Source: Vicia villosa
Taxonomy: Eukaryota; Streptophyta; Magnoliopsida; Fabales; Fabaceae
Assembly (NCBI RefSeq): GCF_029867415.1
Contig: NW_026705415.1
Span: 496,001 to 560,000 of the forward strand
Length of the DNA: 64,000 nucleotides
Direction: 5' to 3'
Position numbers and translations under genes: made by a program. The notes under the pieces are model-generated. The model was not told the DNA's origin and ran no database searches. It worked only from the letters and a program-made list of their open reading frames with translations. Below, piece after piece: positions 1-58,945 of the stretch; the first letter of the stretch is position 1; every line of letters starts with the position of its first letter.

Positions 1-25
1 CAAGCTTTCGTAGTTTATGAACCCC

Positions 26-740
26 ACTTACTATAGTTCTAATAAGTTTCCGTAGTTTGTGAATCCCACTTACTATAGTTCTAGTAAGTTTCCGTAATTT
101 GTGAACCCCAAAAGGATCACTTGCTGTAGTTCTAGCAAGTTCACCTGCACCAATAGGATTACTTGTCATAGCTCTGACAAGCTCACCTGCACCATTTGGA
201 ACATCTGCCCTTGTTCGGACAAATTTCACATGCACCATTTGGATCATTTTCCCTGGCTCGGACAAATTTCACCTACACAATTTGGATCATTTGCCCTGGT
301 TCGGACAAATTTCACCTGCACCATTTGGATCATTTGCCCTGGTTCGGGCAAATTTCACCTACACCATTTGGATCATTTTCCCTGGTTCGGACAAATTTCA
401 CCTACACCATTTGGATCATTTGCCCTGGTTCGGACAAATTTCACCTACACCATTTGGATCATTTGCCCTGGTTCGGACAAATTTCACCTGCACCATTCGG
501 ATCATTTGCCCTGGTTCGGACAAATTTCACCTGCACCATTCGGATAATTTGCCCTGGTTCGGACAAATTTCACCTACACCATTTGGATCATTTGCCCTGG
601 TTCGGACAAATTTCACCTACATCATTAGGAGTCACTTGCCCTTGTTTGGACAAGTTTACCTGCACCATAGGAATTACTTGGCATGGTTCTGACAAGCGTA
701 CCTGCATAAGAAGAGATCATTTGCTATAGTTCTAGCAAAC
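26..740. repeat. 43-bp minisatellite of covarying hairpins
   Basis: Between about 200 and 640 a 43-bp unit recurs (GGATCAT starts at 241, 284, 327, 370 and so on). More diverged units flank it on both sides. Each unit holds an inverted repeat around a 6-base loop close to TRGTTC. The arms differ between units but remain largely complementary: ACTTACTA/TAGTAAGT at 68-89, ACTTGCT/AGCAAGT at 119-140, CTTGTCA/TGACAAG at 162-181, ATTTGCCC/GGGCAAAT at 332-353, TTTGCTA/TAGCAAA at 720-739. The commonest unit has one mismatch (TTTGCCC against GGACAAA). Because 43 is not a multiple of three and the unit lacks stops, several plus-strand frames stay open; the resulting 136-177 codon ORFs are by-products. 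Confidence 0.9.
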
Positions 741-814
741 TTACCTGTATCAAAGGAATTGCCTGCCATGGTTCTGACAAGCGTACCTGCATGAAAGAGA
801 TTCACCTGTTTGGA

Positions 815-1085
815 GACTCATGACTCGAGGGTCGGAGAAAATAACATGTCAAATATTCACGACTCGAGGGTCGGAAAGGAAACGATATGTTTAGAAACTC
901 ATGACTCGAGGGTCGGACCTTCACGACTCAAGGGTCGGAAAACACCTCAATCACAAAACGAGGGTTGGAAACTCACAACTCGAGGGTCGGAAAACACACC
1001 TATCGCAACACGAGGGTTGGAAACTCACGACTCGAGGGTCGAAAAACACACCTATCACAACACGAGGGTTGGAAACTGGGCTTTT
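815..1085. repeat. Interspersed short repeat array with two hairpin types
   Basis: About nine copies of a GACTCGAGGGTCGG-like core are interspersed with an ACACGAGGGTTGG-like core. The first forms arms CGAC/GTCG (for example 860-873), the second CAAC/GTTG (for example 1006-1019). The two differ by a paired G-C to A-T exchange in both arms. ORFs here come from the repeats and resemble no protein family I know. Confidence 0.75.
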
Positions 1086-1274
1086 GTAATATGTGAATGC
1101 ACTAGATGATATGCATATGCTAATGCGTATGTATGCTGATGCTGGTATCAATCCTAAGGTTTTATCTCCGTATTGAACCTGTTTAAACCATATTTGCACC
1201 TACACCACGGCTATGCTTATGCCGGCTTGGTAATGTTTATGCTTATGTATATGTTGATGGATGTAGCGAGTGGA

Positions 1275-1670
1275 ACGAAGTAATGTCTTCTATAAGACTA
1301 CCTAAAAGGTTTCTGGAATGGATATGAAAATTTGTCTTAAAGAAGACTACCCGAAAAGGTTTCTTAGAAAGGATAGAAACTTGTCTTAAAGAAGACCACC
1401 TGGAAAGGCTGAAATATGTCTTAAAAAAGACTACCAAAATGGGTTCCTATAAAGGATAGGACTTTGTCTTAAAGAAGACCACCTAGAAAGGCTGAAAGAT
1501 GTCTTAGAAAAAGACTACCTAAGAAAGGTTCTTGGAAAGGACGGTGAATGTCTTAGAAAGGACCACCTAGAAATGTTCTTTAGAAAAATAATGTCTTAAA
1601 AAGACTACCTAAAAAGGTTCCTAGAAAGGATCATAAGATTTGTCTTAAAGAAGACTACCTGAAAAGGTAT
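1275..1670. repeat. Mini-hairpin array, units of about 50 and 35 bp
   Basis: Nine units each begin with GTCTT, 3-5 A-rich bases, then AAGAC (for example 1285-1298, 1334-1347, 1642-1655). Most go on to a second small inverted repeat, ACCT-GAAA-AGGT (1657-1668) or TCCT-AGAA-AGGA. Spacer lengths and sequences vary while the arms stay complementary; one unit has AGGAC, giving a G-T wobble. Confidence 0.8.
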
Positions 1671-1939
1671 GGTGTAATGTATCAACCAATGTATGTAATG
1701 AATGGTTTACATGTAATTGCATGATGCTGTAATGCTAGGTTGTTGATAACCAAAAGTGTATACGGCTCGCTGGAGTTGTAGGTTTGCTGGATGAGGTGGG
1801 ATGTGATGCTAGTGCGACTTCCCAATTCTTGTTTTTTTTGAATTTTGAAGATCGTAGTTAGGAGAAAAGATTGGTTCGAGGTTGTAAAGTATGAAGATGT
1901 CTTTTCCTTTTGTTATGCGCCTTGCCTCAGTTTGGGCTT

Positions 1940-2090
1940 TTGAATTAATCCACGCCTTTAACCTTTTGAGGTTCTCCACGCCTTTAACCTTTCGAGGTTC
2001 TCCATACCTTTAACATTTCGAGGTTCTCCACGTTTTTAACCTTTGTATATTCTCCACACCTTTAACCTTTTGGGTTGTTTACCTTATGGA
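1940..2090. repeat. 26-bp repeat with AACCT/AGGTT hairpins
   Basis: Five to six copies of a unit near CCACGCCTTTAACCTTTCGA followed by GGTTCT. Arms AACCT and AGGTT flank TTTG at 1960-1973 and TTCG at 1986-1999. Later copies are degenerate, and one has lost its 3' arm. Confidence 0.7.
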
Positions 2091-4719
2091 TTTGATATCC
2101 AATTCCCCAATGTTTAGTAGAAATAGGTGTCTAAAATCTCCAAGCCATGAAGGAGGTGCCCCGAGAAACAACCTTGTTATATGCTTCGACGTTCAGATTG
2201 AAGGGTATGCCCTTGATCTCCAGGATATGAAGGGCTATCCATAGTGTTCTATCCTCTTGAATTTGAATTCTTCCCATGTTTGACATGCCCCTGATTGAGA
2301 TTGCTTCGAGGTGTGCCCCAAGTCGATTGAACCTTAAGATGAATGCCCCTAGTTAATAGGATGTTTGATTGCATGCCCCTGTGATCCTTGAAATTTTGCC
2401 CCTGTTTAGGAGAACCCCCTAGATGTGGTTCCCCCATTCCAGAGTCTTTATTGGAGATAATCGCCTTTGATTAACCAATTTCGAGATCTTCTTGATGCTA
2501 AGTGTATATTCGTAGATGACGTTGTACCCTTTGAGGAATAACTCCAATGCGATGCGTATGCAAGTTTTGAAGTCGAAGTCCGTTATGAATTAGGACTGGA
2601 TGATTAGAAATGAATGCTTGAAAAAGCGTAGTGATTATAAATAGTTTTAACAAACCTAGGAGCCATTATAACAAAATACTGCTTAGTATGCTTTCGTGGT
2701 TAACCTTGCCTCAATTAGGACTTTTGAATGTTGTATCTTGGCTTGGTTCACGGTTTTAAGAAACAATGGATATAAGGCTCAAAAATTTATTTAACCCACC
2801 CCTTTCTCCTTAATGTTCTCCAGATCCTAAAGTTCGCCTAATTCAATGAATGTGCTTTATATGTAAGAGAATCGTTTCAGTCTTGACGTTGAGCAGAAAC
2901 CTTAGTAGAGATCCACGCACTGATGAAAAGTGTAGAGATTCAAGCATTGACGGGAATCTTTGATGATTTAGCAGTCACAAGATTATCCTCTGTATTTCGC
3001 CTTTGTTTTTTTCTATCCCTTATTTTTGCATGAACCAATTCCTTTGAATTTGATCCATCGGGATGCCCCTATTTTTTTTTGCTTAAGTCATTTTGCTTTT
3101 TTTCACGGAATTTTCCATTTTGACTTAGCGGGCGTTGTTTTTTTTTTGAAAGCTCCTTTTGAAATATTGATCCTTGAATGTTGTGACTGCCATGTTGACT
3201 TTGATTTGTAAGCTTCGACTTTGATACTTCCTCGATCTTGAATGACGTAATGAGGAAGAAGATTGTTGTGAATGTTATCTCCATTGCTCCCTCAACCTTG
3301 GATGAACGCGAGGAAGAAGATATGCTTGAACCTTTGCTTGGATTGACTGATTCTCTTGACAACCAAAATACACCATTGAATTAATCGAAATCTACCCTGC
3401 CCCTGGTTAAAATCAAGGTTTATTTGAAAACTAGAAACAAACTCCAACTCCTGGCTCGAGGGGGTGACGAGGGATTAACATCCTTATATCTCCACTGTTT
3501 GGGAATTAAAACAATGCCTGTATATCCTCGGCTCAGTCTTACCTTGAAAGCATACGTTTAGCGAGACTTAGTTATTTGCATTCATCATTCTCCCTTAAGT
3601 TTGTTAATAATCCTAACTCTGAAATTTAAAATAGCATAGAAGGGTGCGAGTGGAAAGTCGTAGAAGTGAGCAAATGAAGCGAATGAATTGATTCCAAAGC
3701 CTACATGGTCATCCCATTAGAATTGCTAATCCGAAGGTACAACTTTTATCTTGAGTAACACTTAGAGATCGTAAGGGTTGAAATTCTGACATGATAAACA
3801 CCTATTGATCCTAGGGACAACCTCCTCTGTAGATCCATTGACCTTGTTTTACTCCCTAGTTCATGGACTTGTAGAAGTGGGGGCAACCTCGAATTTTCCT
3901 TGGGCACGTCAAACCTGTCGAGAATAGATTGTTAGCGGTGGGTTTTCGTCGTATCGGAACTTCATGAGTTTCCTTTGACTGAACCTCTTTTGCTTTTTTC
4001 TACGGATAGTATCACACCATTCGCAACCTTCAAAATTTGTAAATTGATGAAGAAAACCTATGATCCTTTTTCCCCTTGGTGTGGGGTTAACCTATGTCGC
4101 CTTCCCTCCATTGCAAATAGGCATCTTTGTTCAGGGTATTGCCCCAGTTGGACTGACCCTTGCCCCCAAGTTATCATAGAGCGTCCACGTAAGTTTTGCT
4201 ATGTTCATAGATGAACCCCTTTATGACTAGATACCCCTTGTGTGTATCTATGAGGGAACTTCTTTGTTGAACTAATCCTTGCCCGACGGTAAATTTGGTT
4301 GTATTTACGATCCTGTTATGACAAGGCATGGACATGCGGCTGGCGTGGTGAAAGGCATTCCTTTTTCTCCTTGTGAGACAAAGTTTGTTCTCGATAATTT
4401 ATCCTCCTTTCTCCATAGTCTACGATCCTTTGGATTTTTCTTTGCGAGTCTCGGGAAATCGACTAGCACGGAAATCGTGGACGCGGGCGAAGATGGATAT
4501 GCAAATGTAAATGTATGAATGCATGAAAATGCAAATGCATGGGTATGCGAGAGACTCCTTCTATTGTAACTCCTTGTATGCAATGCAATGTGGACGTGCG
4601 ACGTATATAATCCTAAGGATAGCCTATGCGGATTCTGAGGTGACATTTGACCCTAGCGAAATTCTTGCAAGCTAGACGCCAATGGAAATCCATTAGATTA
4701 GGGAGTATGTACAAGGTAG
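2091..4719. other. Non-coding internal region of element A
   Basis: No gene is supported here. The longest ORFs are 60-113 codons, low-complexity, and match no family I recognise. Runs of ATGCCCCT and TTGCCCCT recur on the plus strand, like those in the 3' untranslated region of Ogre-type elements. The stretch 4500-4600 is rich in ATGCAAATG-type words. Confidence 0.6.
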
Positions 4720-5850
4720 TGGCTGGTAACCGTTCAAGACAGTCACCAAATCTCATGGCCATCGAGAGGCCGTTCGACGTGTACCGATGAAGTTGTCCCT
4801 CGTGGGAAGGTTTTCTATGCGGAACACAACCTATCTAAGGACGATATCGAATGAAGTGAAATCCCTATAGGCTAGGGATTGAAGATGCATAAATGGAAAT
4901 CCAAACCCTACAAGTTAGAGGGTGTGCGGGAATAAGCATGAGATGACCGTTCAAGACAGTCACCAGATCTCATGGCCATCGAGAGGCCAATCGACGTGCA
5001 TTAATGAGGGTGTCCTTCAGGGGAAGGACGCGTCGTTGTAAAAACACATGGACGTAAAAGAAAATCCCTACAGGCTAGGGAGTTCGTAGGAGCAAGCACG
5101 GGGTGACCGTTCAAGACAGTCACTGGATCTCATGGCCATCGAGAGGCCAATCGACGTATGCTAACGAAGATGTCCTTCGTACGAAGGATGCGATTTTGGA
5201 ATTAGAATCCCTATAGGCTAAGGAATGTGTAGATGCAGGCACGAGGTGACCGTTCAAGACAGTCACTAGATCTCATGGCCATCGAGAGGCCAATCGACGT
5301 GCATTAATGAGGGTGTCCTTCAGGGGAAGGACGCGTCGTTGTAAAAACACATGGACGTAAAAGAAAATCCCTACAGGCTAGGGAGTTCGTAGGAGCAAGC
5401 ACGGGGTGACCGTTCAAGACAGTCACTGGATCTCATGGCCATCGAGAGGCCAATCGACGTATGCTAACGAAGATGTCCTTCGTACGAAGGATGCGATTTT
5501 GGAATTAGAATCCCTATAGGCTAAGGAATGTGTAGATGCAGGCACGAGGTGACCGTTCAAGACAGTCACTAGATCGCATGGCCATCGAGAGGCCAATTGA
5601 CGTGCGTAAACGAAGATGTCCTTCATGGGAAGGACACATAGTTGTAAGAGTACAAAGATATAAAAGGAAACTCCCTACAGGTTAGGGAGTGCGTAGATGC
5701 AGGCGCGGGGTGACTGTTCAAGACAGTCACTAAGTCTCATGGCCATCGAGAGGCCAATCGACGTGCATAAAATGGAGATGTCCTTCGTGGGCAGGACATG
5801 GTCTTGGAAATAGAGTCCCTGCAGGCCAGGGAACACGTAGGAATACCTGC
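4720..5850. repeat. Higher-order tandem array of multi-hairpin units
   Basis: The anchor CGTTCAAGACAGTCAC starts at 4731, 4948, 5108, 5251, 5411, 5554 and 5715 (TGTT in the last). Spacings of 217, 160, 143, 160, 143 and 161 show a 303-bp dimer, copied nearly without change at 4948-5250 and 5251-5553. Each monomer carries four successive inverted repeats: GTGAC/GTCAC (GTGACTGT/ACAGTCAC at 5710-5730), TGGCC/GGCCA, GTCCTTC/GAAGGAC (5012-5029; a 16-bp perfect palindrome at 5173-5188), and AATCCCT/AGGGATT (4860-4880) or ACTCCCT/AGGGAGT (5670-5690). The minus-strand ORFs of 63-72 codons are repeat by-products. Confidence 0.85.
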
Positions 5851-6649
5851 AAAAATTAAAACACAAGACATTCGCAGTATATAAATTTCACATAAGCACA
5901 TAAGCCCTAGGTTCATAGGTCCGATGTAACGGCTTAGGGTGCCTACCCTTCCCATTGGTATGTTCTAGAAGGTCTCATGGGGTCGTTCGTAGCTGCCGAG
6001 ACTTTTTGTCTCTTTGGATTTTAGAACAACTCATTTATCCATGAGGTTCGAATTTTTGGGGTAGGTTCCCAGAGAGATCAGCTAAATACCAAGTCCAGCG
6101 CTCAACAAGGTCAAGCCTCGTATCAGACCTTTCCGGATATTTAACCCACTCTGAGTGGAATTATAATAAGACTCGTAGGCGATGTAATTCCCCTCTGGTC
6201 TTAAATATCAATCCACTCTGAGTGGAATTATAATAAGACTCGTAGGCGATGTAATTCCCCTCTGGTCTTAAATATAATTCTCACGCTTAGGTTTTAACGC
6301 AATTTATAATCCCAACAGAATATGATAAAACACAAATATTCAATTAATAGAAATATTTAATTAAATTAATATAAATGAATGAGATTGCAAATGAATAAAT
6401 AAATAAATGAAAATTTAAACATTTAAACATAAAACCCTAAATCCTAGAAATTGTAAATAAATATATAAATAAAAATTTAAATATTTAAATATAAAAAGAA
6501 AAGAAATAAAACCTAAATCCTAATCCAAAACCCTAATTTTGGCAAATTAGCTAAACCCTAAAAATTTCGCCAAAAACCTAAATAATTCGCCAAAAAACCT
6601 AAACCCTGTCAAAACCTATAGGAGCATAATAATTAACCAAAAGTGTATT
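5851..6649. other. AT-rich region next to PBS, with a 67-bp direct repeat
   Basis: A 67-bp unit starting at the hairpin CCACTCTGAGTGG occurs at 6146 and again at 6213, nearly identical. The stretch 6290-6640 is AT-rich with repeated AAACCCTAAA-like words and no ORF. On the minus strand this is the leader directly after the PBS of element A; no ORF1 is present. Confidence 0.65.
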
Positions 6650-6667
6650 TCCCCAGCAGATTCGCCA
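6650..6667 (-). other. Primer-binding site of element A
   Basis: The minus strand reads TGGCGAATCTGCTGGGGA two bases inside the LTR. It differs from the PBS of Ogre D (51459-51476) at two positions. Ogre elements are described as priming from tRNA-Arg; the primer here is inferred from that similarity. Confidence 0.7.
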
Positions 6668-6669
6668 GC

Positions 6670-9437
6670 TGTAGCAACCTGCCCTAAATATTAAGCTTTT
6701 AGAGTCGCCACCTATTCTACCAAGGCGAATAGGAACCTTACGCAGTTAAGAGATTCGGAAAAAGTTATTATAATCAGGTCGAGGGAAGGTGTTAGGCACC
6801 CTCAACCCTTTCCTATGGCTTTGAATCTAAGGTAACAGTTTAATGGCTAAAATTATTAAGGTAAATAGCTAAGTAATTGAATAGGGGAAAAAGTGAGATT
6901 TTGGGGAAGGGGACTCGCCTTGTTGCCAAGTGCCTACGTATCTCCTTATGGAGAATCAGAGTCAACGTAGTTCGGGCACAGGGTTGTACGCCTTAGAATT
7001 TGAGATGAAGTGGTTTGAAGGCTTTTTGAATGGCCTATCGTAGTTTTTGAAATGCGAAGTTCAAAGGTATTTTGAATTACCTTATCGTAGATTTGAAAAT
7101 CGCAGAGATGGAAATCTGTAGTTACGTGGTTTAGTGTGTTTTAAAATTTTTGGGCGTACAATCCTGATTTAATATGTCACCGTTAGTTGCGATGGTTAAT
7201 AGATTTGACCCTTATAGTTAACGGATTATATGGGGTATTGCTGGTTACTCTGACCGATAGGTTCGATCGTCGCGGGCAGCAAATAAAATGTATTTTTTGT
7301 AATTTTAAACTATTTATCGTTTTATTATTTTATCTCTCGTCATTACGACTAATAGATTTAGTCGGGTCGAGGAGAGAATTAAACCATAATTACTTAAATT
7401 AACATTAATTCGATTAAATTTATTTCTCGTCAATGCGACTAATAGGTATAGTCGGATCAAGGAGAAAATTATATTAATCTTGAATCAATTGAATAAGAAT
7501 TAAGGTTTTCGCCCAATGACAGTGGGATTGGACAAACCCTAATATTTATAACCTTTATAGGTTTTTTGTGATTTTATAATAAAAATTAGAATACATTAAA
7601 TCGAATAATCGAAATAATCGGGAAAAATCCTAACAAAATCCTAATTTGATTCTTCTAATCCTAATTTAAAAATTAAATTATATCTATATTAATATTTTCT
7701 ACAATTAAACAATCATATAAGTGATATACAAATAATATGAAGAAAATAAATAAATAGAAACCTGGACCGGATCCTGTGTGTGTGGCCTTTGAGGCTCCAT
7801 GGTAGAGGCGCATCTTAGTCCTTCAGATCCAGATTGTTGGGAATCCAAGGGTTGACATATGGGGGATCATGAAAAGGGCGTGCGTGCCTATCTATTGGAT
7901 CTGTAAGTAAGAAAAGGCAATAAAAATAATTGTGGAGGCCTGGGTTCAAACCCATGTCATTGGATTCAAAGGCAATACGCCCTTGCCATGCGCGCTGGCT
8001 GCAGCTGATGACATTAGTGCGCATTAAATTCAAAATAAGCGGAAAAACATGATGAAATTTTAAAGTGGAAACAGACCGCGCTCGTACTGTACGTTCTTCT
8101 TCTTCTTCTTCGTTTTATTCTAAAAACTCAGAACCTATGCCCACGGTTTTCACCTGCGTAGCTATAACATGGCCACCATCCAAACTGCAAATTAGTGTTA
8201 ATAAATCCACAAAAATAAACCAGATCACCTATATAAAACCTTACGAATCCGTTGGGCTTATTGATTTGGCATATAATCATCCATAGTCGAAAATCCCAAT
8301 TTCATAATATGTGAAACCTAGCCATGGTGATTCACAAAACCTGTAAGAAAGCTCAAATCAAACAGTCCATGGAGGTTTTAAACAATATTCTAAACACAAT
8401 GCTATATCCGAAATCGATTTGTGATGTATGTATGATCGAATTTGACTCAAAAATTTTGAGACAAAAACGTGAACAACAGGATCTGTTTGTGTGCGTTCAC
8501 ACTAATGGTCCTCCTCCAGTTACGTCCATAAAGCTTCCATAAGTCGATTACCACACTTGAGTCGGTCTCAAAATTCCTCTGTCCCCTCCCTTGGTTCAGG
8601 ACTGATCTTGTTCTTCCAATGAAGTTTTCGGCCTTTTCTCCTAATCTTCTCCTCCTCCCCCGCGGCTGCACATATTCCATATATATATATATGGTCGAGA
8701 ATTAGGTTTGCAACTAATTCTTGATTTAATCACATAAATGGTGATTGAGATTATATTGCCATATTTGTTTTGGATATCCTTGTTCTTGCAAATCCAATCC
8801 TTTTTTTCCATGAAACGTGAACAACTTGTTTTGGTTTTTTTTTTTATTAAAAGAATAGTAAAACTATCAATACAATAATAATAGTATGAAATAATGGAAT
8901 AGTAATGGATTCTACTTTTGAGTTTTTTTCTCTAAATTAGTAACGGCAGTAATATATCCTAACACTATAAAGAAAATAAATACAATGTCTAGAAAACAAA
9001 CTTAATATTAATAATGCTAGTAATAAACTATGATAATGACATGGTCTCCTAATAATAACGAATCGTATAATAATAGTATAATAAAATAATCCTAATAACT
9101 TAATAAAGCTAGAATTAAAATGTAAAATCTACATATAACGAATATAAAAATGTGAAAGAAACCAAAATATGGAGAAAGGGGAGGTTTGAACTCAATACTT
9201 TTTACTTGCGAGTCTTTCTCCTTATTCTAGTTATTCGAAATAAAAATACACTTGAAAGCATACGAAGGTCAAACAAATATTTGTTATTTCAAATATACAA
9301 ACAATTTAGAATAGACTATTTTATATCTTTAAGTGAGCAAAATTTAATTAATGTTAGTATAATCTAAATTTTTTATAAAGTCCAAGTTTAAAATAATTTG
9401 ACTGTTAGAAGTAGGGGGGCCAAATTTTAGGGTATGA
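6670..9437 (-). repeat. 5' LTR of element A (2768 bp)
   Basis: The boundaries are TG at 9437 and CA at 6670 on the minus strand, directly followed by the PBS. The last 200 bp hold a block typical of the downstream end of Ogre LTRs: a GTGGCGACTCT motif near 6700 and a GGTGCCTAACACCTTCCC motif near 6800. The interior is AT-rich and has no credible ORF. A CCATATATATATATATGG palindrome lies near 8678-8694. No second LTR is in the window, so divergence cannot be measured. Confidence 0.7.
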
Positions 9438-10161
9438 CAACTCTCATAAACACACGGTCTCCCTCTTGAAACTCAAGTGTTTTCCTCCTCTTGTCATGAT
9501 AACTCTTCTGACGACTCTGAGAAGCTTTCATCTTCTCTTGGATCATCTTAATCTTCTCTGTAGTCTGTTGTACAATTTCTGGCCCGATCACAACACTCTC
9601 ACCAGATTCGTACCAACACAACGGCGTCCTACATCTTTTACCATACAAAGCCTCAAATGGAGCCATATCAATAATCGAATGATAACTGTTGTTGTAGGTA
9701 AATTCAATCAAAGGTATGTAACTATCCCAAGCACCTCCTTTTTCCAACACACAAGCCCTCAACAAATCCTCTAACGACTGAATCGTCCTCTCAGTCTGTC
9801 CATCAGTCTGCGGATGATAAGCAGAACTCAATCTCAGTTTAGTACCCAAAGCCTTCTGCAAACCTTCCCAGAACTTGGATGTAAATCTCGGATCTATGTC
9901 TGACACGATACTTGAAGGAATACCATGCAGACTCACTATCTTCTCAATAAACAATTGAGCCAGCTTCTCCATCGGATAATCCATTCTTACCGGTATAAAA
10001 TGTGCAGACTTCGTCAACTTGTCTACCACGACCCAGATAGCTTCACAATTTTTGACAGTTCTCGGCAAACCCGACACAAAATCCATTGATATGCTATCCC
10101 ACTTCCACTTAGGAATAAACATCGGTTGCATAAACCCAGATGGTTTCTGATGCTCAATTTT
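9438..10161 (-). pseudogene. Integrase fragment of Tekay element B
   Basis: Core domain of a Ty3/gypsy integrase, which would insert the cDNA copy into chromatin. The DD35E triad is visible: Asp in SMDFVSGLP, Asp in IVSDIDPRF, Glu in DGQTERTIQ, with 35 residues between the last two. A TAA at 10162-10164 separates it from the RT/RNase H part, where element C reads TCG (Ser). The frame ends after FMRV, where the LTR of element A begins; only three residues and the stop come from A. The integrase C-terminus and chromodomain are therefore missing. Confidence 0.9.
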
Positions 10162-43859: not shown

Positions 43860-43860
43860 T

Positions 43861-43948
<88 letters not shown>
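43860..43948. repeat. (TA)n microsatellite (copy 2)
   Basis: About 44 TA units, longer than in copy 1. Confidence 0.95.
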
Positions 43949-43951
<3 letters not shown>

Positions 43952-43966
43952 AAGAGATAATAAATC

Positions 43967-46311
<2,345 letters not shown>

Positions 46312-47569: not shown

Positions 47570-50500
47570 TGTCATACCCCAAAATTTGCCCATACACTTT
47601 TTCCTATTCCAATTCAAATCAAGATGCAAAGCTCCAAGACACACTCTCCTATACAAGGCTCTAAAACTAGGGTCTGGCTTAATCAAAGGAAAATCAGTGA
47701 TTCAATGGCTCCAAGACATCTCATATGGCTCAATATATCTCATATCTTCTCCATGACAAGTATCAAGTCCCAATTCAAAGGATTGGTCACTCAGTTGTTC
47801 AGAAAATCGACAGTCGACTAATTTAACCTAAAAGTCAACTGTGGTCAAAGTAAAGTCAAAACTCCTGATTTTTTGTCAAGATCCTCATATTGAAGTATCA
47901 TTCACCATTTGATCAAGAATTGATCATGGTTCATCAAGGAGAGATTAAAAATCAACAAATCAAAAAGTTTCTAAATTAGGGTTTTGCATAGGAAAAGTCA
48001 ACTGAACTTTGACCAGCCATAACTCTCACATGGAACATCCAAAATTTTACATTCAAAGCTCATCTTGAAGGAAATTTGATTCTCTACAAAATTGTGTCTC
48101 ACATGCCAAGTCTAAAAATGCTTCATTTGGGAGATATGGACCAAAACACTATAGGTCCTTTTCAAAAGTCAACAAAAAGCCACTTTTTTCAAAAGAGCAC
48201 ACAAGGAGAATGGAAAATTATTTTGACATGGGACCAAAAACACTGGTTAGAGGACATCTTGAGGTTTCCAAAAAGTCCTAGAAATCCTCCATATCTTAAA
48301 AATTGAGGGAAATATGCCTTGTCAAAGTTGATCGATTTTAAGAGAAAAAATGTGAAACAAAAGGCTTCAAATTGATTTTTCTTTCAAAAGGGCCCCATCT
48401 TTTTATGACCCAAACTTGCTTCTAGGATCATCAAGAGTGGCTACACCCAATCCCACGATTTGTTGATTTTTATTATTATTTTTTATGAATTTTTATTCAT
48501 TTAAAGTACAATTTAAATCAAAATAATTAAAAGAAATGTTAGAGATTTGATTTAGTTTTAGTTCCCAATAAAATCCAATCAGATATCATGCCTCATAATC
48601 ACTCAAAATTGGTGCAATTTAGAATTAAAGGTGATTGAATCAAGTATTGGATAAGTTTAGTAAGAATCTCAAATCAAATTTTCTAAAAGAACAAATCAAA
48701 GATTGAAGAAGATTGATTCCATAATAGTTAACCTAATTCATTCCATGATAAATAGGGAACAGTTGCAGACCCCTAGGAGGGTTTTCAGCAGCGTTAGAAA
48801 CACCATTCCGAGTGCAAAAAGTGGAGAAAAATTGAGTTTGTTCTTGGCAATTGAGAGTGATTCAAAGCGTCTGGAGGCTTCAAACACTTACCTGGGGCAT
48901 CAGTGATCGTTTCCAATCCTAATCAAAGCCAGAAGCGTGAGAAAACGCAGCTTACGAGTCACGGTTTGTTCTACGTTTTTGTCTAATTCGATTCCAATTA
49001 CACATGCATATATAACATGATTCAGGTAAATATTTGCGTTTACAATGATGTTTGGATACTCTCTGCATAGTTTGATTTTGTTTTTGACACGGATTGGATA
49101 AACCACCATTGATGAGTTCTTAGGGTTTCAGAATAGGGATTCTTGATACAGGTGGAATTAGCCTTGATTATAGGCATGACTGGGTTCGGATTGATGAGAC
49201 AAACTCATCCATGGTTTCACCCGTTATTTTCGTTGCTCGTGTGTGTTTTTGAGTATGCAGGGACATTCGGCCACGGTGGAAAACCGTTGTTAAAAGCGTT
49301 GCCAAAGATTCCAGAAAAACCAACGAAAGAGATGAAGGGGTCTGTGCGCGCGAACTTTCAATTTTTAAAACCTGCTATTCTTTTTTTTGTTTTATGGTCG
49401 ATTCTATTCACGCGTGCGAAGGTGCTTCAGTGGCGAAGGAAAGCGCTTAAGGCTTTGCTGGTCAGTAACATGGGTTCGAGCCTGCGGTACGACATCAACT
49501 TTTTGTGAATAAACATGCTTTCAGGTTCTATACGCGCTACATGAGGAACCCTATGATACATCCTCACGTCACAGCCCTCGGATCACATCTAAATCAGATC
49601 CGACGCTCCACGGCATGAAGCTCTACCATGGATTCCCAGAAGCTGATCACACTGAATCATAAGCTGAGTTCTCTATTTTATTTTTATTTTTACTTATTTA
49701 TTCAATAACTATAATTTATGTGTTGCTTATTTATTAAAAATTCTTTTAAATTATTTTAACAAAACTTCTTTTGAATTTCCTTTTTGTTAATAATATTATT
49801 TATTTTTGTAACTAATTTGATTTAATTATTAATGATAATTCTTATTTGATTTAAATAATTAAATGGTTAATTTAATGATTTAATTAATTAGGTTAATATT
49901 TTACCAATTGATTAAAATACTTACTAGGATTAGGCAATTTGATCGAAAATTTATTTTTTTTGCCGATTTTATTAATTGGGTTGAAAACCAATGATTAATT
50001 TGTTTCATTCTATTAACTATGGCTAACTTGTGCCCTAATCAGGGTTTACAAAGATCGCCCCCTACACTAAAATACTTCTTTTTCTATGCCTTTTTCAGGG
50101 TTGACTTTTCAGATACACTCCGACTACGCACCACGTCTAATACGAAGCTAAGTATTCGATTCTTTTATCTTCAAAGTCTATTTTGTTTCCTTTTAATTTT
50201 AAGATTTACCTTTCATATTTTTGAACTACGCATACACTCACTCCTTCTTCTGTCTTTGCCTTGTTATTTTCAGGGTTGACCCCGAGGCTTCCTCTGACCG
50301 CCAACCATATCAGATCAAATGCAAAGCTAAGTGCCTTTTTATTGTTTATATATTTATTTTTTAATTTCTTTATATTTTTATTTTTTAGGGTTGATTTCGT
50401 TTGCCTTAGAACCGATAATGCACTCACCCATTTTTCTGTTTATTCTTCCTTTTCCAAATCTTCAGGGTTTGTCAATTGCCAAAGCTACGAGTATCGGTAA

Positions 50501-51454
50501 CCCTAAACCCTAAACTATTATATTTTCTGTTTTTAATTATATCCCGCTGGTTTCAACTCCCCTCTCCTCCGCTGGTTTCACTTTCCCTTCCCCATAATTG
50601 TTAATATTAATTGTTGTGGTTAGTAATCCTAGGGAGTGCAAGTTTTGTTAATTCAATTAGAATCACCTAACTATCTGAATATAATCACGTGATTGTTGCA
50701 CCCACGCACACTTTTGGGGTAACCTGCCTGTTGCCTGTTGCCTTGTTGCCTGTTGCCTTGAGTTTTTTTTGCAGAATAGCCATGTCCCTCAAATACGAGG
50801 ATACCTCAGCCATGCTGCCTCGATACAAATAAAGGTCATAAGTCCCTAATGATGCTGCCTTCGATACACTAATATGGCCTCGACCCTCGAAAGTTGCCTA
50901 CGAAAGGTTGAGGTATCCTCTGGTTGCCTATGAAAAGGCTATTCTGGTCCTTCCCTTAGACTACCTGCCTCTCTATGGCATGGGTCAGTCTTGTGGCGAA
51001 CGACAATGCGATGACCCTTCAACCTCCAAATGAAAGGCTTCCTGCCCTCTTATGGCATGGATAGACCCTTTCACCCTGAAAGGCTAAAAGAACGCTTTTT
51101 AAACTATAAGGTAATTGCCCCTAATTGCTTTGCCTTGCTAAAAAAAAATCTTTTCATATTCTTTCTCATAAATCTTCAAAATGGCTACGCTCATTTACGA
51201 GCTAAAGTCCATACTCTTTTTCTTCTACATTTCTGAAAACAAAGAGCAAAGCAATTAAGAGCCCATGGAAAACCATGGATGCAAAGGGTGCCTTACACCT
51301 TCCCTTTGCATAAATTACCCCCCGAACTCAAAATCTTTTTAAAAGGTTTTTCCTGTTCTTTTAGCCTTTCTAATATTTGGATAAAATAAAAGTCGGTGGC
51401 GACTCTTGCTTACCGTACATTTTCGATTATAAAAAGTCAGTTCACCGTATTACA
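47570..51454 (+). repeat. 5' LTR of Ogre element D (3885 bp)
   Basis: Starts TGTCATACCCCAAAATTTGC, ends TTCACCGTATTACA. Near the 3' end are TTGCCTGTTGCC repeats (50722-50760), an inverted pair GAGGATACCTC (about 50798) and GAGGTATCCTC (about 50920), and a block around AGTCGGTGGCGACTC (51393). All of these also occur inverted in the LTR of element E, so they are family features. No gene is seen inside. Confidence 0.92.
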
Positions 51455-51458
51455 GAAC

Positions 51459-51476
51459 TGGAGACTCTGCTGGGGA
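51459..51476 (+). other. PBS of Ogre element D
   Basis: TGGAGACTCTGCTGGGGA, four bases after the LTR end. Ogre elements are described as using tRNA-Arg; assignment by family. Confidence 0.8.
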
Positions 51477-52200
51477 TAAATTTCTATAAAAGAGGGGTTA
51501 CCTTAAGAGTTTAGGAGTCACTTAAATGTTTTCTATTGTTTGTTTTGCTTGTTTTATTTTTCAGGGCTATTTTGGGAAAATTGAAGGACGAATCCTATTC
51601 CCAGATTCAAGTATATCTAAGATAGGAAGTGGCATAGTCATGGCGACCTCCTTCATGTATGTGGAGGATTGGTCAATATTAGAGTTCACGCTTAAGTTAG
51701 GCCTCTATAGGTGTTTGCATGCTTCTCTTGTATGAGGGAGGTTCGTGCGGATGTCCGTGGGTGAGTCGGAGCTTAAGGACCTTTAGTTACCTTTAACCCA
51801 TCTTGACTTTTAGGAACGTAGTGGGGGGACTACTCTTGATGTATGTTGAGATCATAGTCGCTACCCGATACTACAACTCAAATAGGTTCTTTCTCAAAGT
51901 ATCATTGCATGGTATATATGTATCATGTTCGAGGGTGCTTTAGGAGGGCTGACAATTCTGGGTAACTCGGTAGAACCCGTTGCTGATATCATCTCTATCC
52001 TTAGAAATACCTTTGGGGAAGGGTACCTCACATGTTCTAAACTCCATGCAAGCCAAGCCTAAGGAAATTGTGTGATTTGTGTGGACTTATTTGTGTTTGT
52101 GCATCATGCATACATGCATCATTCATCCATGGCATGACTAACCCATTTCAAGGATTTGGGGATTTTTTAACCATATATTGTTTTGTAGGTTGTTTGAAAT
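51477..52200 (+). other. Leader of Ogre element D
   Basis: Untranslated region between the PBS and ORF1. One 69-codon ORF (51526-51735) is not supported as a gene. Confidence 0.6.
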
Positions 52201-53407
52201 ATGGAAACCAAAGGTCGTAAACCGTTCTTCCTCAATTTCAAGAAAGTACCTACACCATTGAAGGTTTTCTGCGACAACATCTCTGGTTCTCTCAAATTCA
52301 GTGATTCTCTCAACACACTTATAAGCTTGGTACGAACTAATGTGGATGAGGTTCTTCTCAACACTATGGTTCAATTCTATGATCCATTACTACATCGCTT
52401 CACTTATAGAGATTTTCAGTTAGTACCATCCTTGGAAGAATTCTCCTACTTGCTGGGACTCCCTGTGCTTAATCAAATTCCTTATACTGGTAAAGAAGAA
52501 GAGCCTAAGTGGGAAGTCATCGCTGCTGCCCTACACTTGCCAAGATCAGAGATTGAGAAAGTTTGGATTAGTAAGAAAGAGTATTCTGGATTACCCCTTG
52601 ATTTCCTCTACGAAAAAGCGGAGATCTTTGCTAAAGCTTCAAGTATGGATGCCTTGGAAGCTGTTTTGTCCCTTTTAATTTATGGACAAGTCTTGTTTTT
52701 CCATTATGACAAAATTGTTGACGTGGTTGCTATCAATATATTCCTTAGCAAGAATCCGGTTCCTACTTTGCTTGGCGACTTGTTACATTCTATTCATTTC
52801 CGAGTATTAAAAAGGAAAGGTTGTGTCCTAGGATGTGGTCCTCTTTTGTATAAGTGGTTTATTTCGCACTTACCTCTCTCCGTAAGAAAGAATGAAGAAG
52901 GATTAACTTGGGCTCAAAGAATTATGAAGCTTTCTTTTGACGACATCATCTGGTACCAAAAGAAGTTTGAAGGAACTTTGTTATTTGATAGTTGTGGAGA
53001 ATTCCCTAATATACCTCTTCTTGGTGTTCGTGGAGGAATAACTTATAATCCCATTCTAGCTCGACATCAATTTGGTTTTGCCTTGAAGGACAAACCACGT
53101 TCTTTGTATCTTAGTGCAGAATATTTCAACTATGATTCGGATAAGGCAAAGAAAAGAGATCTCTTCATCAAAGCTTGGTCGAAAGTAAAGAAGGTTGGTG
53201 CAAAAGATATAGGAAGGAGAAACTACATGCCACGGGACCCATACTTCCAATGGGTTTATGATCGAGTTATGGAATTTGGGATGCCTTATCCATCTGATAC
53301 GCCCATAGTTCCAAGAGTAGCTCCTCCTGCTGTCCCAGTTACATTTGAGCCATATGTTCCTACTCCAAATGAAGATCTGGTTGCAACTGTTAACCAACTA
53401 AAGAGGG
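52201..53407 (+). pseudogene. Ogre ORF1 (DUF7745/plant-mobile-domain-like), 3' end cut off
   Basis: Ogre elements carry an extra ORF upstream of gag whose role is unknown. Here 402 codons run without interruption from MET KGRKPFFLNF to NQLKRV; the last codon and the stop come from the LTR of element E. The protein is globular, without zinc knuckles or protease motifs. Its LLGLPV and YRDFQLVPSLEEFSYL stretches match my recollection of the plant mobile/DUF7745-like proteins found beside Ogre gag genes. The start fits the family position, about 0.75 kb after the PBS. Confidence 0.8.
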
Positions 53408-56400
53408 TGTAATACGGTGAACTGACTTTTCATCGATCGAAATGTCGCGGTTAAGCATGAGTCGCCACCGACTTTTATTTTATCCAAACAAATTCGGAAA
53501 GGCAAAAAGAAACAGAAAAAAACCTTTTAAAGAAATCTAAGTTCGGGGGGTAATTTATGCAAAGGGAAGGTGTAAGGCGCCCTTTGCATCCATGGTTTTC
53601 CATGGGCTCTTAATTGCTTTGCTTGCTCGTTTGTTTTTAGAAAAAGTAGATGAAAGAGATAGGGACTTTAGCTTGTGAATAAGCGTTGCCCTTTTGAAAA
53701 ATTATGAGAAAGAATATAATAAAAAGGTTTGAGCATTGCAAGGCAATTAGGGGCAATTACCTTAAACTCAGATAATAGGTCTCTTTTTGCCTTTCAGAAT
53801 GAAAGGGTCTATCCTTGCCATAAGAGGGCAGGAAGCCTTTCGTTTGGAGGTTGAAGGGTCATCGAAGCATCCTTTGCCATAAGACTGTCCCATGCCATAG
53901 AAGGGCAGGTAGTCTAAGGCAAGGATCAGAATAAGCCATTTTCGTAGGCAGCCAGAAGATACCTCAGCCTTTTCGTAGGCAACATCCGAGGGTCTAGGTC
54001 ATTTGTGTATCGAAGGCAGCATCATTAGGGTCGTGACCTTTTTATCGAGGCAACATGGCTGAGGTATCCTCGTATTCGAGGGACATGGCTTATTCTGCAA
54101 AAACACAAGGCAACAGGCAACAAGGCAACAGGCAACAAGGCAACAGAGAGGTTACCCCAAAAGCGTGCGTGTGTGCACCAATCACGTGATTATGTTCAGT
54201 TATGTTATCTTATAAAATTACGTGATGCTAATTCAATTAATAAGTTGCACTCCCTATAATTACTAACCACACAATAATATAACAATAATAATGGGGAAGG
54301 GAAATTGTAACCAGCGGAGGAGAGGGGAATTGAAACCAGCGGGATATAAAAATAAAAGGCAAACGGTTTAACACAAGTAATAATTTGTAAATAGGGTTTA
54401 GGGTTACCAATACTCGTAGCTTTGGCAGTTGACAAACCCTGAAAAGTGGAAAAGAAAGAATAAACAGAGGGGTGAGTGCATTATCGGTTCGGAGGCAAAT
54501 GAGGTTAACCTTAATAAAATAAAAGATAAATAAATTAATAATGAATGATAAATAATACTTAGCTTTGATTTGGATTTGATCTGATATGGTTGGTTAGAGT
54601 CGGAGGAAACTTCGGGGGTAACCCTGAAAAGACAAGGAAGAAAGAGAGGGAGTGAATGTATGCACAGTTCAGAAATATAAGGACAAACCCTAAAATTAAA
54701 AAGGAAACAGGGTAGACATCGAATAAATAAAATACTTAGCTTTTGTATTTTGATCGGGCGTGTCATCGGAGTGAACCATGTTGATAACCCTGAAAAGGCA
54801 CAAAAGAAATATTCAGTGTAGTGGGATGTTCGTCGCAAACCCTGATTAGGGTACGAATTTAAATAAGAAAATATAAATGGTTTAATTAATTATTGGTCTC
54901 GCGACCTAATTAATTAAATCGGGATAAAAATAGAATCGAGTACAGAAATAATTTTTAGGAAAATTTTTTAGGATTAAAACAAAATAGATATGAATTTTTA
55001 AAGTAATATACATAATTAAATATATATAAAATATAATATATAAAGATAAAAAATAAACTAATGTAAATAAAATAAATAAATAAAACATATTATTTAAATA
55101 AATAAATATATTATATATATATAAAAAAAAAATTAGAATAAAAGAAAATAAATAGTTTATTATTAATAAGAAAAAGAAATATTTAAAATGATATATATAT
55201 ATATATAAATAAAAACAAGTTACATAATTAAAAATAAAAAAAATTTGGAAAATTCTTAGCTTGGATCTGGTGCTACGCGCTCCTGAAGGATCATGATGGA
55301 CATGCAGGTCTGGGTACGTTGGATGTGACGTTGGAATGATCTAACGGACGATGGTGTGAGGGTACACGCTAGTGCGTGTTTCATATCGCATGTAATCCAT
55401 CCTGATGCAACCAAAGACGCGCGCGAAGCACATTCAAATCAGCCAATCAGACTGCGCCACGCAGTCGTCTTCTACCTCAGACCATGGCTTTTAACACCGT
55501 TTATACTCAAGAGCGCTGTAATATATCTGAAGCTTCACACCTGAAAATAACGAACACAAGCAAACACACACAAAAAATTTTCGCGATAGGTCCATTATGA
55601 TCGTATGGACATCACGAATTTGGTCATGGCATCAATTGAATCAACAAGAACCTGTGTCAAAAACCCCCAAATTGAAGGTCCGAACCCTAACATGGTGAGA
55701 CGTTCATAACACCATAATAATGCACCAAACTTTCCAGAATTGATCAACACAATATGAGAAACACAAATATGCAATTAAATTCGCGAATGAATGCATGAAT
55801 TTGTAGAATCGAAACGATTTACGAATCGGTTTAAAGCGACTTACAGTGCGTAATTCTTGAGGTTTCGTGACTCGAAAACGATTGGGAATCGTTTAATGGT
55901 GCTTGAGGAACAGTTTTGGATCAATTGCAATCCTTGAATCGACCTCGATCTCCAAATTGACACTTGAGTTTTTTGTGATTTTTTTTGGCTCGGGATTGGT
56001 TCTTTGGAGGCAGCCAATTCGTGTCCTTTGCATCTGGCTTTGATCAGTATATATATGAGACTGATTAGGGTTGATAAAACTGAAGGAAATCCTTTTGAAT
56101 CTTGAATTGAAAGTTTTGGAAATTTGATTGAAAATTATATACAATCTTTCTAATTATGGACAAGTTTTTGATCCAATTTTTCCATAAATTTCCACATAGA
56201 ATGTGCACGAAATTTGATTGGTTTTTTGAGTTAAATGTAAATTGGATTTGATTGGAATTGGATTTTGGTTGAATATTTGATCTTTACTTAATTTTTATGA
56301 ATTAAAATCACTTTTAAATGATTAAAAATGCATATAAAATTAAATAAATATTTCAAAATTCGTGGCATTCAGATTTAAGGCCATGGATATCTTGGAGATC

Positions 56401-57244
56401 AAGTTTGGGCCATGGGAAGTTGGGCTTCTTTGCAAAAAATCTCAATTTGAAGCCTTTTGTTTCACATTTCCTCTCACAAGTTTGTCCAACTTTGACAAGG
56501 CGTATCTCCCTCAATTTTTGAGGTATGGAAGTGTTATAAGACTTTTTAGAAACCTTAGAGAGTCCTCTAACCAATGCCTTTGGTCCTATATCAAAATCTT
56601 TTTCCATTCTTATTTTATGACCTTTTGAAAAACATGTCTTTTTGTTGACTTTTGAAAAGGACCTGTAATGTATGAGGCCATAATTCTTAAACCATTGACC
56701 TGTGAGCTTTGATTCTTGGACCATTGGATAGAGGAATGAATTCTCTTCAAAATGAGCTTTGGTGGGAATTTTTCTGATGAAGTATGAATATTTGGTGAAT
56801 TTTCAAAGTTTGGTTGACTTTTTTAGTTCATGCCCAAAATAGTAACTCTTGACTTTTGACTTCTCTGATCTTTCCTTGCATCATCATGATCAACCCTTGA
56901 TCAAATGATGATTTTAGGGTTATGAGGATGTTGTTGACCAAATATCTTGAGTTTTGACTATATATTGACTTGAAATGACTGTTTTGCCCTTGAGAGTCGA
57001 CTGTTGACCTAATCAGGATTTGAGGGACTAAATTTGCTCTGTTTGACTTGAAACTTTATATGGATATACTTTGGGATGTTGGTGAACCTATGGAACCACC
57101 TTGAGCCATTGATTCAATGATTTTCCATTGAATTAATCAAACCCTAGTTCAGAGCTTTTGTATAGGAGAGTGTGTTTTGGAGCTTTGTCTTTTGATTTGG
57201 TTTTATGTATGAAAAATAGCATGGGCAAATTTTGGGGTATGACA
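53408..57244 (-). repeat. 3' LTR of Ogre element E (3837 bp)
   Basis: On the minus strand it begins TGTCATACCCCAAAATTTGC at 57244 and ends TTCACCGTATTACA at 53408. It is the same family as the LTR of D but visibly diverged from it. It has the same TTGCC-rich repeats (54100-54145) and the GGTGGCGACTC block. ORFs of 60-144 codons inside are not supported. Confidence 0.92.
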
Positions 57245-57257
57245 GCTGCCCCTGTTC
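57245..57257 (-). other. Polypurine tract of Ogre element E
   Basis: The minus strand reads GAACAGGGGCAGC directly before the 3' LTR. Confidence 0.8.
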
Positions 57258-57470
57258 AATTATCTTAAACCTGAAGATGTAGAGTGGTCTGTATGCCAGT
57301 CGGTATCTGAAGGTGGAAGATGATTGAACACTAGAATACCAAGAAATTTGCCCTAGCTGAAGTAAGGACTTTTGTCGGAGATGGGCTTGTAGATGCCATC
57401 TGATAGTTGTTGGAGTATGGATTGTTGCGAAATTTCTGCTTTTGCCGTCTTCTCTTTTTTTGTTTGAATG

Positions 57471-57905
57471 TTGAGGAACCGTCAAAGGTGTCGACTCAAG
57501 TCTGTGTTGGGTTATTTAAGGAACCGTCAAAGGTATCGACTTAAATTTGAAATACGTCGTTAAGGAACCGTCCAAGGTGTCGACTTAACTGAGGGGGTGT
57601 TGTTAAGGAACCGTCAAAGGTGTCGACTTAACTCTTGATGTGGGTTGTTAAGGAACCGTCAAAGGTGTCGACTTAACTTTGAAACATATCATTGAGGCAC
57701 CGTCAAAGGTATCGACTCAGATATGCAGATAGATTGTATAAGGAACCGTCAAAGGTGTCGACTTATATCTGAAGTGTGTTGTTAAGGAACCGTCAAAGGT
57801 GTCGACTTAACTCTTTGATGTATTAAGGAACCGTCAAAGGTGTCGACTTAATACTTGAGAATAGATTGTTAAGGAACCGTCAAAGGTGTCGACTTAACTC
57901 TTTTG
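57471..57905. repeat. Ten-unit covarying hairpin array in the Ogre 3' UTR
   Basis: Ten units of 40-46 bp share a 19-base core close to GAACCGTCAAAGGTGTCGA with variable spacers. The bases flanking the core are complementary in every unit but differ between units: TTGAG/CTCAA (57471-57499), ATTTAAG/CTTAAAT (57514-57546), GTTAAG/CTTAAC (five units), TGAG/CTCA extended by a G-T wobble (about 57693-57720), TATAAG/CTTATA (57737-57767), GTATTAAG/CTTAATAC (57820-57854). The array lies about 230 bp upstream of the PPT in element sense. Ogre 3' UTRs are known for variable tandem repeats. Confidence 0.93.
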
Positions 57906-58765
57906 TAAATAGATAGTAATATCCTGAAAAGTAGAGGTTAGTTTTCTTATGTCATGATGCATGTGTTTATGTAATGAGTATCTCAAAATAAATGAGAAAC
58001 TTTGCATGTTATGGATTTGTTATGCAGCGATGTATGCGATGTATGAATATGTTTGTGTCATATGGTATGCGAATATGATTTATGTTGTCGAGAAAATAAA
58101 TCTTCAGATGCTAATCTTGATGTTTGATTTTGTCTTGAAAGGTGTTCAGCTGGAGATTTATGATTTCTGCTTGGGGGATGATCAGTAACTTGATATTCCC
58201 TGATTGGGATACAGAGAAAATAGGGATGTAAACCGTGTTGGGGAGCCATGCCTTTATTGTGGGAAGATATCTTCTTAGTGATTGCTCTGTGGGGATATGT
58301 CAATTGATTTGCGGGAGGACTTTTGATTACCTCGGACATTGTCTCTTTGCCTTTCCTACTAATAGACTATTACTACCTATTTCTATTGGAAAAAGAAAGT
58401 GGATGATAATCATGTTCATATGCATATGTTCATTCAAAATTATCATTGGACGTTTGCGTATTCGAAAAGAAGAAGAAATTTGAAAGAGAGAAGTAAATTG
58501 TATTGAGAAAAGCCATAAATAGGCAAGATGAAACATATTGTGTGTTTTTGAAAAGATAGAAAAACAAAAGAAACATAGCTATGTAAAAATAATCCTATTG
58601 AGTTTCCACTCTGCTATTGCTATTATGTCTTCGAGCATCTCATCCCATGCTTGTCGGAGAAAAGTGATTGAGTTGATCTGAACCCTTTGAACTTGTTGTT
58701 GTAGATGTATCTGATTGATGAATGATAGGAACGAGACATAGTCGTACGCTTAATCCTTAACTTTT
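57906..58765 (-). other. Ogre 3' untranslated region, between arrays
   Basis: No supported gene; ORFs of 69-93 codons on both strands overlap each other and match nothing I recognise. Confidence 0.65.
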
Positions 58766-58945
58766 GCCTAGACCGCCCTTTTAGGTTTTCAGTCTAGCAG
58801 GATACCCTTTTTTGCCCAAGTCGCCCTTTCGGGTTTTCAACTTGACGGGTGTACATATTTTATATATATATATCCCTAATTTTTGCCCAAACCCTTTTGG
58901 TTTGCCGGGATGCCCTTACTTTTGCCTAGGCGCGTCGACCTAGCG
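58766..58945. repeat. Four covarying hairpins just after the Ogre pol stop
   Basis: Each unit starts TTTGCC (plus strand) and has its own pair of arms: CTAGAC/GTCTAG (58768-58797), CAAGT/ACTTG (58817-58844), CAAACC/GGTTTG (58888-58904), CTAGG/CCTAG (58926-58943). The first two loops share CGCCCTTT and GGTTTTC, so the units are related while the arms are not. The array directly follows the stop codon of pol in element sense. Confidence 0.85.

Follow-up and report, generated by a model that had tools for sequence, protein, structure and literature searches.

Covarying hairpins recur in unrelated tandem arrays of long terminal repeat retroelements of Vicia villosa

A stretch of 64,000 nucleotides of Vicia villosa DNA (assembly GCF_029867415.1, contig NW_026705415.1, positions 496,001 to 560,000; hereafter the window) contains two long terminal repeat (LTR) retroelements, called here A and E, which carry seven arrays of short tandem repeats: A1 to A5 in element A and E1 and E2 in element E. 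A preliminary description of this DNA had proposed that all seven arrays are chains of hairpins in which folding and not sequence is kept. We found that the fold recurrently, though not universally, persists in such arrays while the sequence changes. Covarying stems were revealed in five unrelated families, namely A1, E1 and E2 of the window and two families from other parts of the genome, F4 and F6/7; the proposal was supported for these five and not for the full set of seven arrays. Loops or flanks and, in one case, a bulge were also conserved, and stems and loops of E1 varied little in comparison with its spacers. The best reading of these data, which we hold to be, if narrowly, the probable one, is selection on a cis-acting hairpin in the RNA of the element.

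The window is legume-like DNA packed with nested LTR elements. It was compared with its own assembly (2.03 Gb, 1,888 contigs), in which it occupies C492:496001-560000; regions with L numbers (e.g., L019 or L031, the latter being the left flank of the window) are stretches taken from this assembly. Covariation was evaluated against two nulls: whole 3' arms were permuted between distinct units, or the 3' letters were shuffled separately for every pair. As a slide control, the alignment of the arms was shifted and rescored against the true register. Minimum-energy folding was rejected as proof, its z-scores being small for single units and for E1. All seven arrays were recovered at their previously described places with Tandem Repeats Finder and in the sequence itself, the hairpins of A1 reaching position 782 and not 740.

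Array A1 (26..782, minus strand) consists of 18 hairpins with an 8 bp stem and a 6-nt loop, the sense strand being the minus strand. Changes on both sides were found at five of the eight pairs, and the mismatches were G.U rather than A.C: the non-Watson-Crick cells of the sense strand comprised 11 G.U, one A.C and two others. Among 12 distinct arm pairs, 82 of 96 cells were Watson-Crick, against 59.9 after permutation (P = 5e-5). The share of paired cells in 13 distinct sense units was 96.2% (82.4% in shuffles), and the covariation of 0.604, against 0.338 shuffled, was reached by 0 of 500 shuffles, with slid controls of at most 0.168. RNAalifold found the structure unaided on the sense strand, and the local fold had a z-score of -4.9 in sense and -1.3 in antisense orientation. 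The antisense strand of A1 is also an open frame of 195 codons (window 105-692, plus strand).

Element E, read on the minus strand, contains a protease, a pol open reading frame (ORF; 58954..62463, minus strand), arrays E2 and E1, a purine tract and the LTR. The pol ORF encodes reverse transcriptase (RT), RNase H, a second RNase H (RVT_3) and integrase, the domain order on the minus strand being RVT_1, RT_RNaseH, RVT_3 (E 3e-23) and rve. Judged by the RVT_3 domain behind RNase H, which we take to be a hallmark of Tat, element E is of the Tat type. As expected of a Tat/Ogre element, 1.7 kb separate the pol stop at 58954 from the LTR start at 57244, and E2 and E1 lie in this interval. The frames of protease and RT are 225 bp apart, and the 5' part of the element is beyond the window; Ogre proper has an ORF1 upstream of gag and an intron in pro-pol. 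The 3' LTR starts with TGTCATACCCC (57234..57244, minus strand), which adjoins the purine-rich tract. By this LTR there is a single hairpin, AGATGG..CCATCT (~57378-57401), which in region L037 (1701-1839) forms a 35-bp tandem array of 3.9 copies; here an array has possibly been caught at birth from one hairpin.

Array E1 (57471..57905, minus strand) comprises 10 hairpins with stems of 4-8 bp and a conserved 19-nt loop. Permutation of whole arms in the window gave P = 5e-5 over 10 pairs, 2e-4 over eight and 0.0024 over six. The loop has 1,904 + 1,925 exact matches genome-wide, and its reversed pattern has none. For comparison, 234 units from 19 loci on contig C1 and the window were analyzed. 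The stem types TTGAG/CTCAA, ATTTAAG/CTTAAAT, GTTAAG/CTTAAC, TATAAG/CTTATA and GTATTAAG/CTTAATAC are common to most copies. A further type is bulged (ATATC-AT-TGAG/CTCA-GATAT, with the variant AGATC-AT-TAAG/CTTA-GATCT in L027), and a diverged set of types is present in L020 and L021. Since the stem types recur in most copies, the paired changes are old; changes within one stem type are mostly one-sided. Letters differed from the consensus at a frequency of 1.1% both in stems and in loops and of 11.5% in spacers; 11 untyped units and two loci that are near-duplicates were omitted from this count. Among 36 units with distinct 8-nt arms the covariation was 0.165, against 0.073 shuffled (0 of 500), and 79.0% of cells were paired, against 73.1%. 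Several copies in regions L016-L029 have a small hairpin with a changing loop, ACAAC..GTTGT, between E1 and E2 and close to the latter (e.g., at ~2430 in L019).

Array E2 (58762..58949, minus strand) begins within a few bases of the pol stop and contains four hairpins, whose flanks are similar and whose stems covary: CTAGAC/GTCTAG, CAAGT/ACTTG, CAAACC/GGTTTG and CTAGG/CCTAG. Eight stem families were compared, four from the window, three from pattern matches in the genome and one from L019 (stem CTAAGTC). Their cognate arms pair over 5.75 bp and swapped arms over 2.27 bp (exact permutation P = 2.5e-5), for representatives that were picked by eye and include two separated by a single base pair. 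In the commonest family, contiguous pairing extends over no more than 4 bases (3+5 if a bulge is allowed). The flank pattern, which places no constraint on the stem, has 3,105 + 3,231 = 6,336 matches in the genome, and the reversed pattern has 0. The matches listed come from the first 26 Mb of C1 and have the stems CTG(A)ACTGT/ACAGTCAG, CTGGAC/GTCCAG and CTGGAT/ATCCAG, together with one-sided variants. No obvious sequence is shared among the arrays, as had been claimed, apart from an E2-like hairpin within element A (3077..3136, minus strand; stem TAAGTCA, flanks TTTTGC...GCGGG), which was absent from the preliminary description.

Unrelated arrays were then found in a first set of 20 E2-anchored regions, to which L035, a mere 53-base match, does not belong. 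Nineteen of the 20 contained tandem arrays, 34 in total, which we sorted by eye into 17 families. Stem coverage was above the mean of permuted units in 27 of the 34 arrays (p < 0.05 in 13) and in 14 of the 17 families, in two of them by ~0.01 or less (sign P = 0.0064). Covariation was tested in eleven families or sub-arrays, A2 included; F4 gave P = 5e-5 and F6/7 P = 0.0097, with F2 and F3 near 0.06. A second 20 regions, mostly with the same families, were kept apart as a held-out set. There, with unchanged anchors, P = 1e-4 was obtained both for F4 (L056, L070) and for F6/7 (L063 only, with a spurious member or two); F10 gave P = 0.38, and F1 provided one arm pair only. A held-out P of 0.0004 for F2 was discarded, its anchor being too short outside L034. 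The loci of E1, E2, F4 and F6/7 show that the property is present in other copies; its absence from them had been named in the preliminary description as a refutation.

F4 is a bulged hairpin, CAG-U-UACY-ACGAAC-RGUA-CUG in sense orientation, with covarying pairs on both sides of the one-base bulge. With the bulge at r5, the count was 84 cells against 61.5 in the first set (P = 5e-5) and 77 against 56.7 in the held-out set (P = 1e-4). The Watson-Crick fraction was 0.839 with the bulge in place, at most 0.771 with the bulge elsewhere and 0.503 without it. In 29 distinct units 96.1% of cells pair, and the covariation is 0.583 against 0.291 (0 of 500 shuffles; at most 0.250 when slid). Pair 2-20 occurs as five pair types (AU, UA, CG, GU, UG), and RNAalifold recovers the bulged structure unaided on the sense strand. 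The stems of F6/7 are TCCGG/CCGGA, TCTGG/CCAGA, TTCGG/CCGAA and TTTGG/CCAAA, with a covariation of 0.325 against 0.202 shuffled and at most 0.186 when slid.

The other arrays of element A, all on the minus strand, are less uniform. A2 (815..1085) contains nine short 4-bp hairpins with the stem types CGAC/GTCG and CAAC/GTTG. A3 (1275..1670) is a chain of mini-hairpins, GTCTT..AAGAC, ACCT..AGGT and TCCT..AGGA. A4 (1940..2090) has 26-bp units, of which only some contain AACCT-TTCG-AGGTT, not above chance. A5 (4720..5850) has four hairpins per unit with mostly conserved stems; hairpin 2 is nearly invariant, hairpin 4 alone varies (marginal P = 0.016), and the local fold exceeds shuffles on both strands. 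Stems are nearly fixed in the hairpins of A3 and A5; A4 is indistinct and A2 weak. The density of stems of at least 5 bp, compared with dinucleotide shuffles, had z-scores of 3.5 in A1, 3.3 in A3, 5.9 in A5, 2.3 in E1, 2.1 in E2, -2.2 in A2 and 1.5 in A4; for stems of at least 6 bp, z drops to -0.2 in A3 and -0.6 in A4. In the permuted-unit test, p = 0.016 (the floor with 60 permutations) was reached in each of A1, A3, A5 (4936-5797), E1 and E2, and p was 0.21 in A4 and 1.0 in A2.

It can be hypothesized that in these Tat/Ogre elements the interval from pol to the 3' LTR is built of tandemly arrayed short hairpins with a cis role in the RNA of the element. Several families would keep particular letters in the loop or flanks and the stem merely as a stem; stem letters would drift by paired changes, and the whole array would be replaced again and again. 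Pairing would be maintained by selection on the RNA and not by a copying process. The hairpins may then serve as a binding platform in many copies; its most plausible partner would be Gag/nucleocapsid or an RNA-binding protein of the host, and it might be used in genome recognition, export or stability; the roles in packaging, export or stability are guesses. Element A, in which genes were not found, retains LTRs, a primer-binding site (PBS), the E2-like hairpin and arrays, and this fits a cis signal used in trans. A wider proposal, tentative and to our mind somewhat doubtful, is that the 3' regions of Tat/Ogre elements are structure-first: arrays would repeatedly be replaced by unrelated ones, and each newcomer would have to form a small hairpin, which in some families is bulged and has a fixed loop. 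Selected RNA hairpins would thus be the source of much of the sequence that seeds satellites in large legume genomes.

A number of results, which concern the sampling, the covariation and the strand, weigh against selection on a hairpin in RNA. Families and anchors were picked by eye, and the 5' arm and loop served to pick and type the E1 units, which flatters their conservation. Permutations leave the relatedness of units in. Only three of the five alignment measures were clearly above shuffles; for covarying pairs and pair types the counts were mostly no higher than in shuffles, and in E1 neither was higher. Slid by +2, E1 scores 0.162 against 0.165, though only 35.4% of cells are then paired against 79.0%, and this result slightly lowers the odds for selection. 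As a whole E1 folds no better than shuffles (z = -0.58 in sense), and single hairpins are weak. The claim that partner arms change together was clear in three of the seven arrays, A1, E1 and E2, and did not extend to A2 (weak, P = 0.30), A3 (P = 1, the GTCTT/AAGAC stem being invariant in the tested units), A4 (P = 1) and hairpins 1 and 3 of A5 (P = 1). Covariation was not significant in F1, F2, F3, F8, F10, F12 and L048b, and F9/11 was inconsistent, with P = 0.94 in the first set and 0.0035 in the held-out set with spurious members.

The strand evidence for RNA is mixed. Selection on sense RNA predicts more G.U than A.C mismatches on the sense strand. In 14 families or sub-arrays, with held-out units included for F4, the distinct mismatch states were 31:22 (P 0.14); they were 15:7 (P 0.067) for arm pairs recurring at least 2 times and 11:2 (P 0.011) for those recurring at least 3 times, thresholds that were not fixed beforehand. 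A gradient of this kind would be expected if selection acted in the active lineage and was followed by neutral decay after insertion. The held-out ratios, obtained with an earlier F4 register, were not significant (17:16, 7:3 and 5:2); both sets pooled in that register gave 36:31, 17:8 and 15:4. An automatic strand-neutral caller revealed no G.U excess (9:8, 4:6 and 1:4 in the held-out set; 10:14, 1:2 and 0:1 in the first), and its power is little because near-consensus units were kept. Sense folding was better in 12 of 13 units of A1 and, among the 29 units of F4, better in 17 and worse in 6. Antisense folding was better in E1 (32 of 36 units) and F6/7 (19 of 20), and the local folds of A2 and A3 are stronger in antisense orientation.

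The preliminary description had named template switching as the main alternative. In such quasi-palindrome correction RT or DNA polymerase copies one arm onto the other, and paired changes arise in one step with no selection on the fold. Retrotransposition consists of many cycles of reverse transcription, which counts in its favor, and the strand-neutral or antisense-leaning mismatches and energies of E1 and F6/7 suit a strand-blind process. Besides, the paired changes include A-U to U-A, for which a mismatched intermediate or one double step is needed. In the portions of the literature available to us, the mechanism is a published one that is able to create and perhaps to maintain hairpins and can keep the loop (PMC8794818; on the mechanism also PMC3820800, PMC8604942). 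However, copying of a whole arm should erase the one-base bulge of F4 between its two covarying halves. In 20 arrays of E1 one-sided changes persist uncorrected, e.g., in eight loci at the outermost pair of stems of the GTATTAAG type; together with the stem types common to divergent copies, this indicates that correction is not frequent. The G.U excess in propagated units, if real, argues in the same direction. We regard template switching as weakened by these results and rather less likely than not, but as a serious rival.

Ascertainment at birth, which we consider unlikely, would also give arrays built of hairpins: hairpins would pause RT and seed tandem duplication, with no further role. 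It agrees with the stem density above the permuted mean in families without covariation as well as with it, and with the contrast between the single hairpin by the LTR of element E and its array in L037, but leaves the later paired changes and the kept bulge and flanks unexplained. Pairing might instead be used in single-stranded DNA or antisense RNA and not in sense genomic RNA. The antisense preferences of E1, F6/7, A2 and A3 point this way, but A1 and F4 favor sense, and we find this improbable. Finally, units descended from few ancestors could look covarying by chance and shared ancestry. The units are indeed related, which permutation ignores; A2, F3 and F10 have two main stem types, the pair-type counts are unremarkable, and E1 loses almost nothing at the +2 slide. 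Up to five pair types per position, the recurrence in five families and the far lower slid controls of F4, F6/7 and A1 make this explanation very improbable.

Element A is read on the minus strand and has an interior of ~7.35 kb. The aligned part of its 5' LTR (6954..9442, minus strand) is 97.7% identical over 2,499 bp to its partner at L031 5807-8301. The last 286 bp of the right LTR (6668-6953) are unmatched in the left copy (around L031 5807), and for this reason the left LTR may be truncated or interrupted. A PBS-like site (6650..6667, minus strand) has 1 mismatch to a Tat/Ogre PBS pattern, which matches the window 2 times against 0.01 expected; the purine tract and the LTR start were read in L031. 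The PBS and the LTR pair rule out the arrays as an ordinary plus-strand 3' UTR (untranslated region), and A5 is closer to the PBS than to the 3' LTR. Ten frames were scanned with Pfam, three of which fall in the LTR; the seven interior ones, of 73-115 aa, revealed no retroelement domain and hence none of the gag-pol domains of the lineage. Within the window the interior has no frame of at least 150 aa except across A1. Two LTRs, a PBS, a purine tract and no coding found are features of non-autonomous elements such as large retrotransposon derivatives (LARDs), known from barley, which resemble element A in having LTRs and a PBS and no recognized coding domains. Because no domain was found in the scanned interior frames, element A looks like a gene-less derivative and not an ordinary Ogre, tied to the lineage via its PBS, LTR start and E2-like hairpin only. 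Thus, of the two Ogre/Tat elements with 3' UTR arrays previously proposed, the assignment is upheld for E as a Tat-type element and not for A.

Some additional repeats were noticed in and near element A. Its left end has an extra hairpin repeat, three copies of GATCACTG..GTGAT. Inside the element, beyond array A5, GGGTGCCTACCCTTCCC (5937-5953, plus strand) resembles the U5 motif GGGTGCCTAACACCTTCCC (6783-6801, minus strand) in the opposite orientation. In L031 (5421-5598) a tandem repeat of 66 bp, which has CCTAGAGT..ACTCTAGG as its inverted ends, separates element A from a match to ATHILA ORF1, and on account of this position it is probably no Tat array.

Elsewhere in the window (49955-54930), an ORF with a DUF7745 domain (52198-53412, plus strand) follows a PBS-like site (51459-51476, plus strand) in a position that recalls Ogre ORF1. 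It is flanked by 1.5-kb inverted LTR-like arms at 49955-51454 and 53408-54930 (~80% alike), next to the 3' LTR of element E. A direct duplication of ~9.25 kb (30925-40175 and 40172-49417; 98-99.6% identity) differs in the lengths of AT/TA microsatellites. A 19-bp near-duplicate with the palindrome CCGCTCAGCGG is located at 38268-38304 and 47511-47547, just before an LTR start TGTCATACCCC.

Ogre-type elements form a large part of Fabeae genomes, and the tandem repeats of Ogre/Tat 3' UTRs were reportedly presented as satellite seeds by Macas in 2009. Should it be the fold that is kept, the existence of the arrays would have a testable reason. The hairpins would then be candidates for a cis signal in the packaging, export or stability of the RNA of a very large plant retroelement, and their thousands of copies a natural data set that separates selection on structure from template-switch mutation. 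Rfam gave no match at gathering scores, one pattern scan and two protein scans found no relatives in IMG/VR, and one weak match in a bacterial bin was not used. Among the open-licence literature matches listed, no paper on covarying hairpins in these arrays was found, which does not establish their absence from print.

The comparisons with known systems refer to the portions of the cited papers that were available. Hypervariable tandem repeats of Ogre/Tat 3' UTRs are described as seeds of satellites (PMC7004042), and functions of the soybean Gmr9 minisatellites, if any, as not known (PMC3305785). These repeats, and those of Retand (PMC11963269), share with our arrays the place between pol and the 3' LTR, several families per element and a family-specific turnover of unrelated tandem repeats. 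The units, which here have covarying stems, are not described as hairpins in those portions of PMC3305785, PMC11963269, PMC7004042 and PMC4659654. Template-switch hairpins likewise combine paired stem changes with kept loops; they concern ribosomal RNA and microRNA, and a kept bulge between covarying halves is not readily explained by them (PMC8794818). The 3' UTR stem-loops of LINE, L1 and Alu are also retroelement 3' stem-loops kept as structure, with a consensus loop of 5-7 nt and, like F4, a bulge, 4-6 bp from the loop; they belong to non-LTR elements and are thought to be bound by RT, whereas ours form tandem arrays in LTR elements (PMC5135761). The ENE element of Arabidopsis Evade is, similarly, a structured cis element in the 3' UTR of a plant LTR retrotransposon, and its deletion lowers transcript stability and the number of new insertions (PMC12501189). 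It differs from the arrays considered here in forming an RNA triplex with the poly(A) tail, in a Copia element for which the same portions mention no tandem hairpins (PMC12501189).

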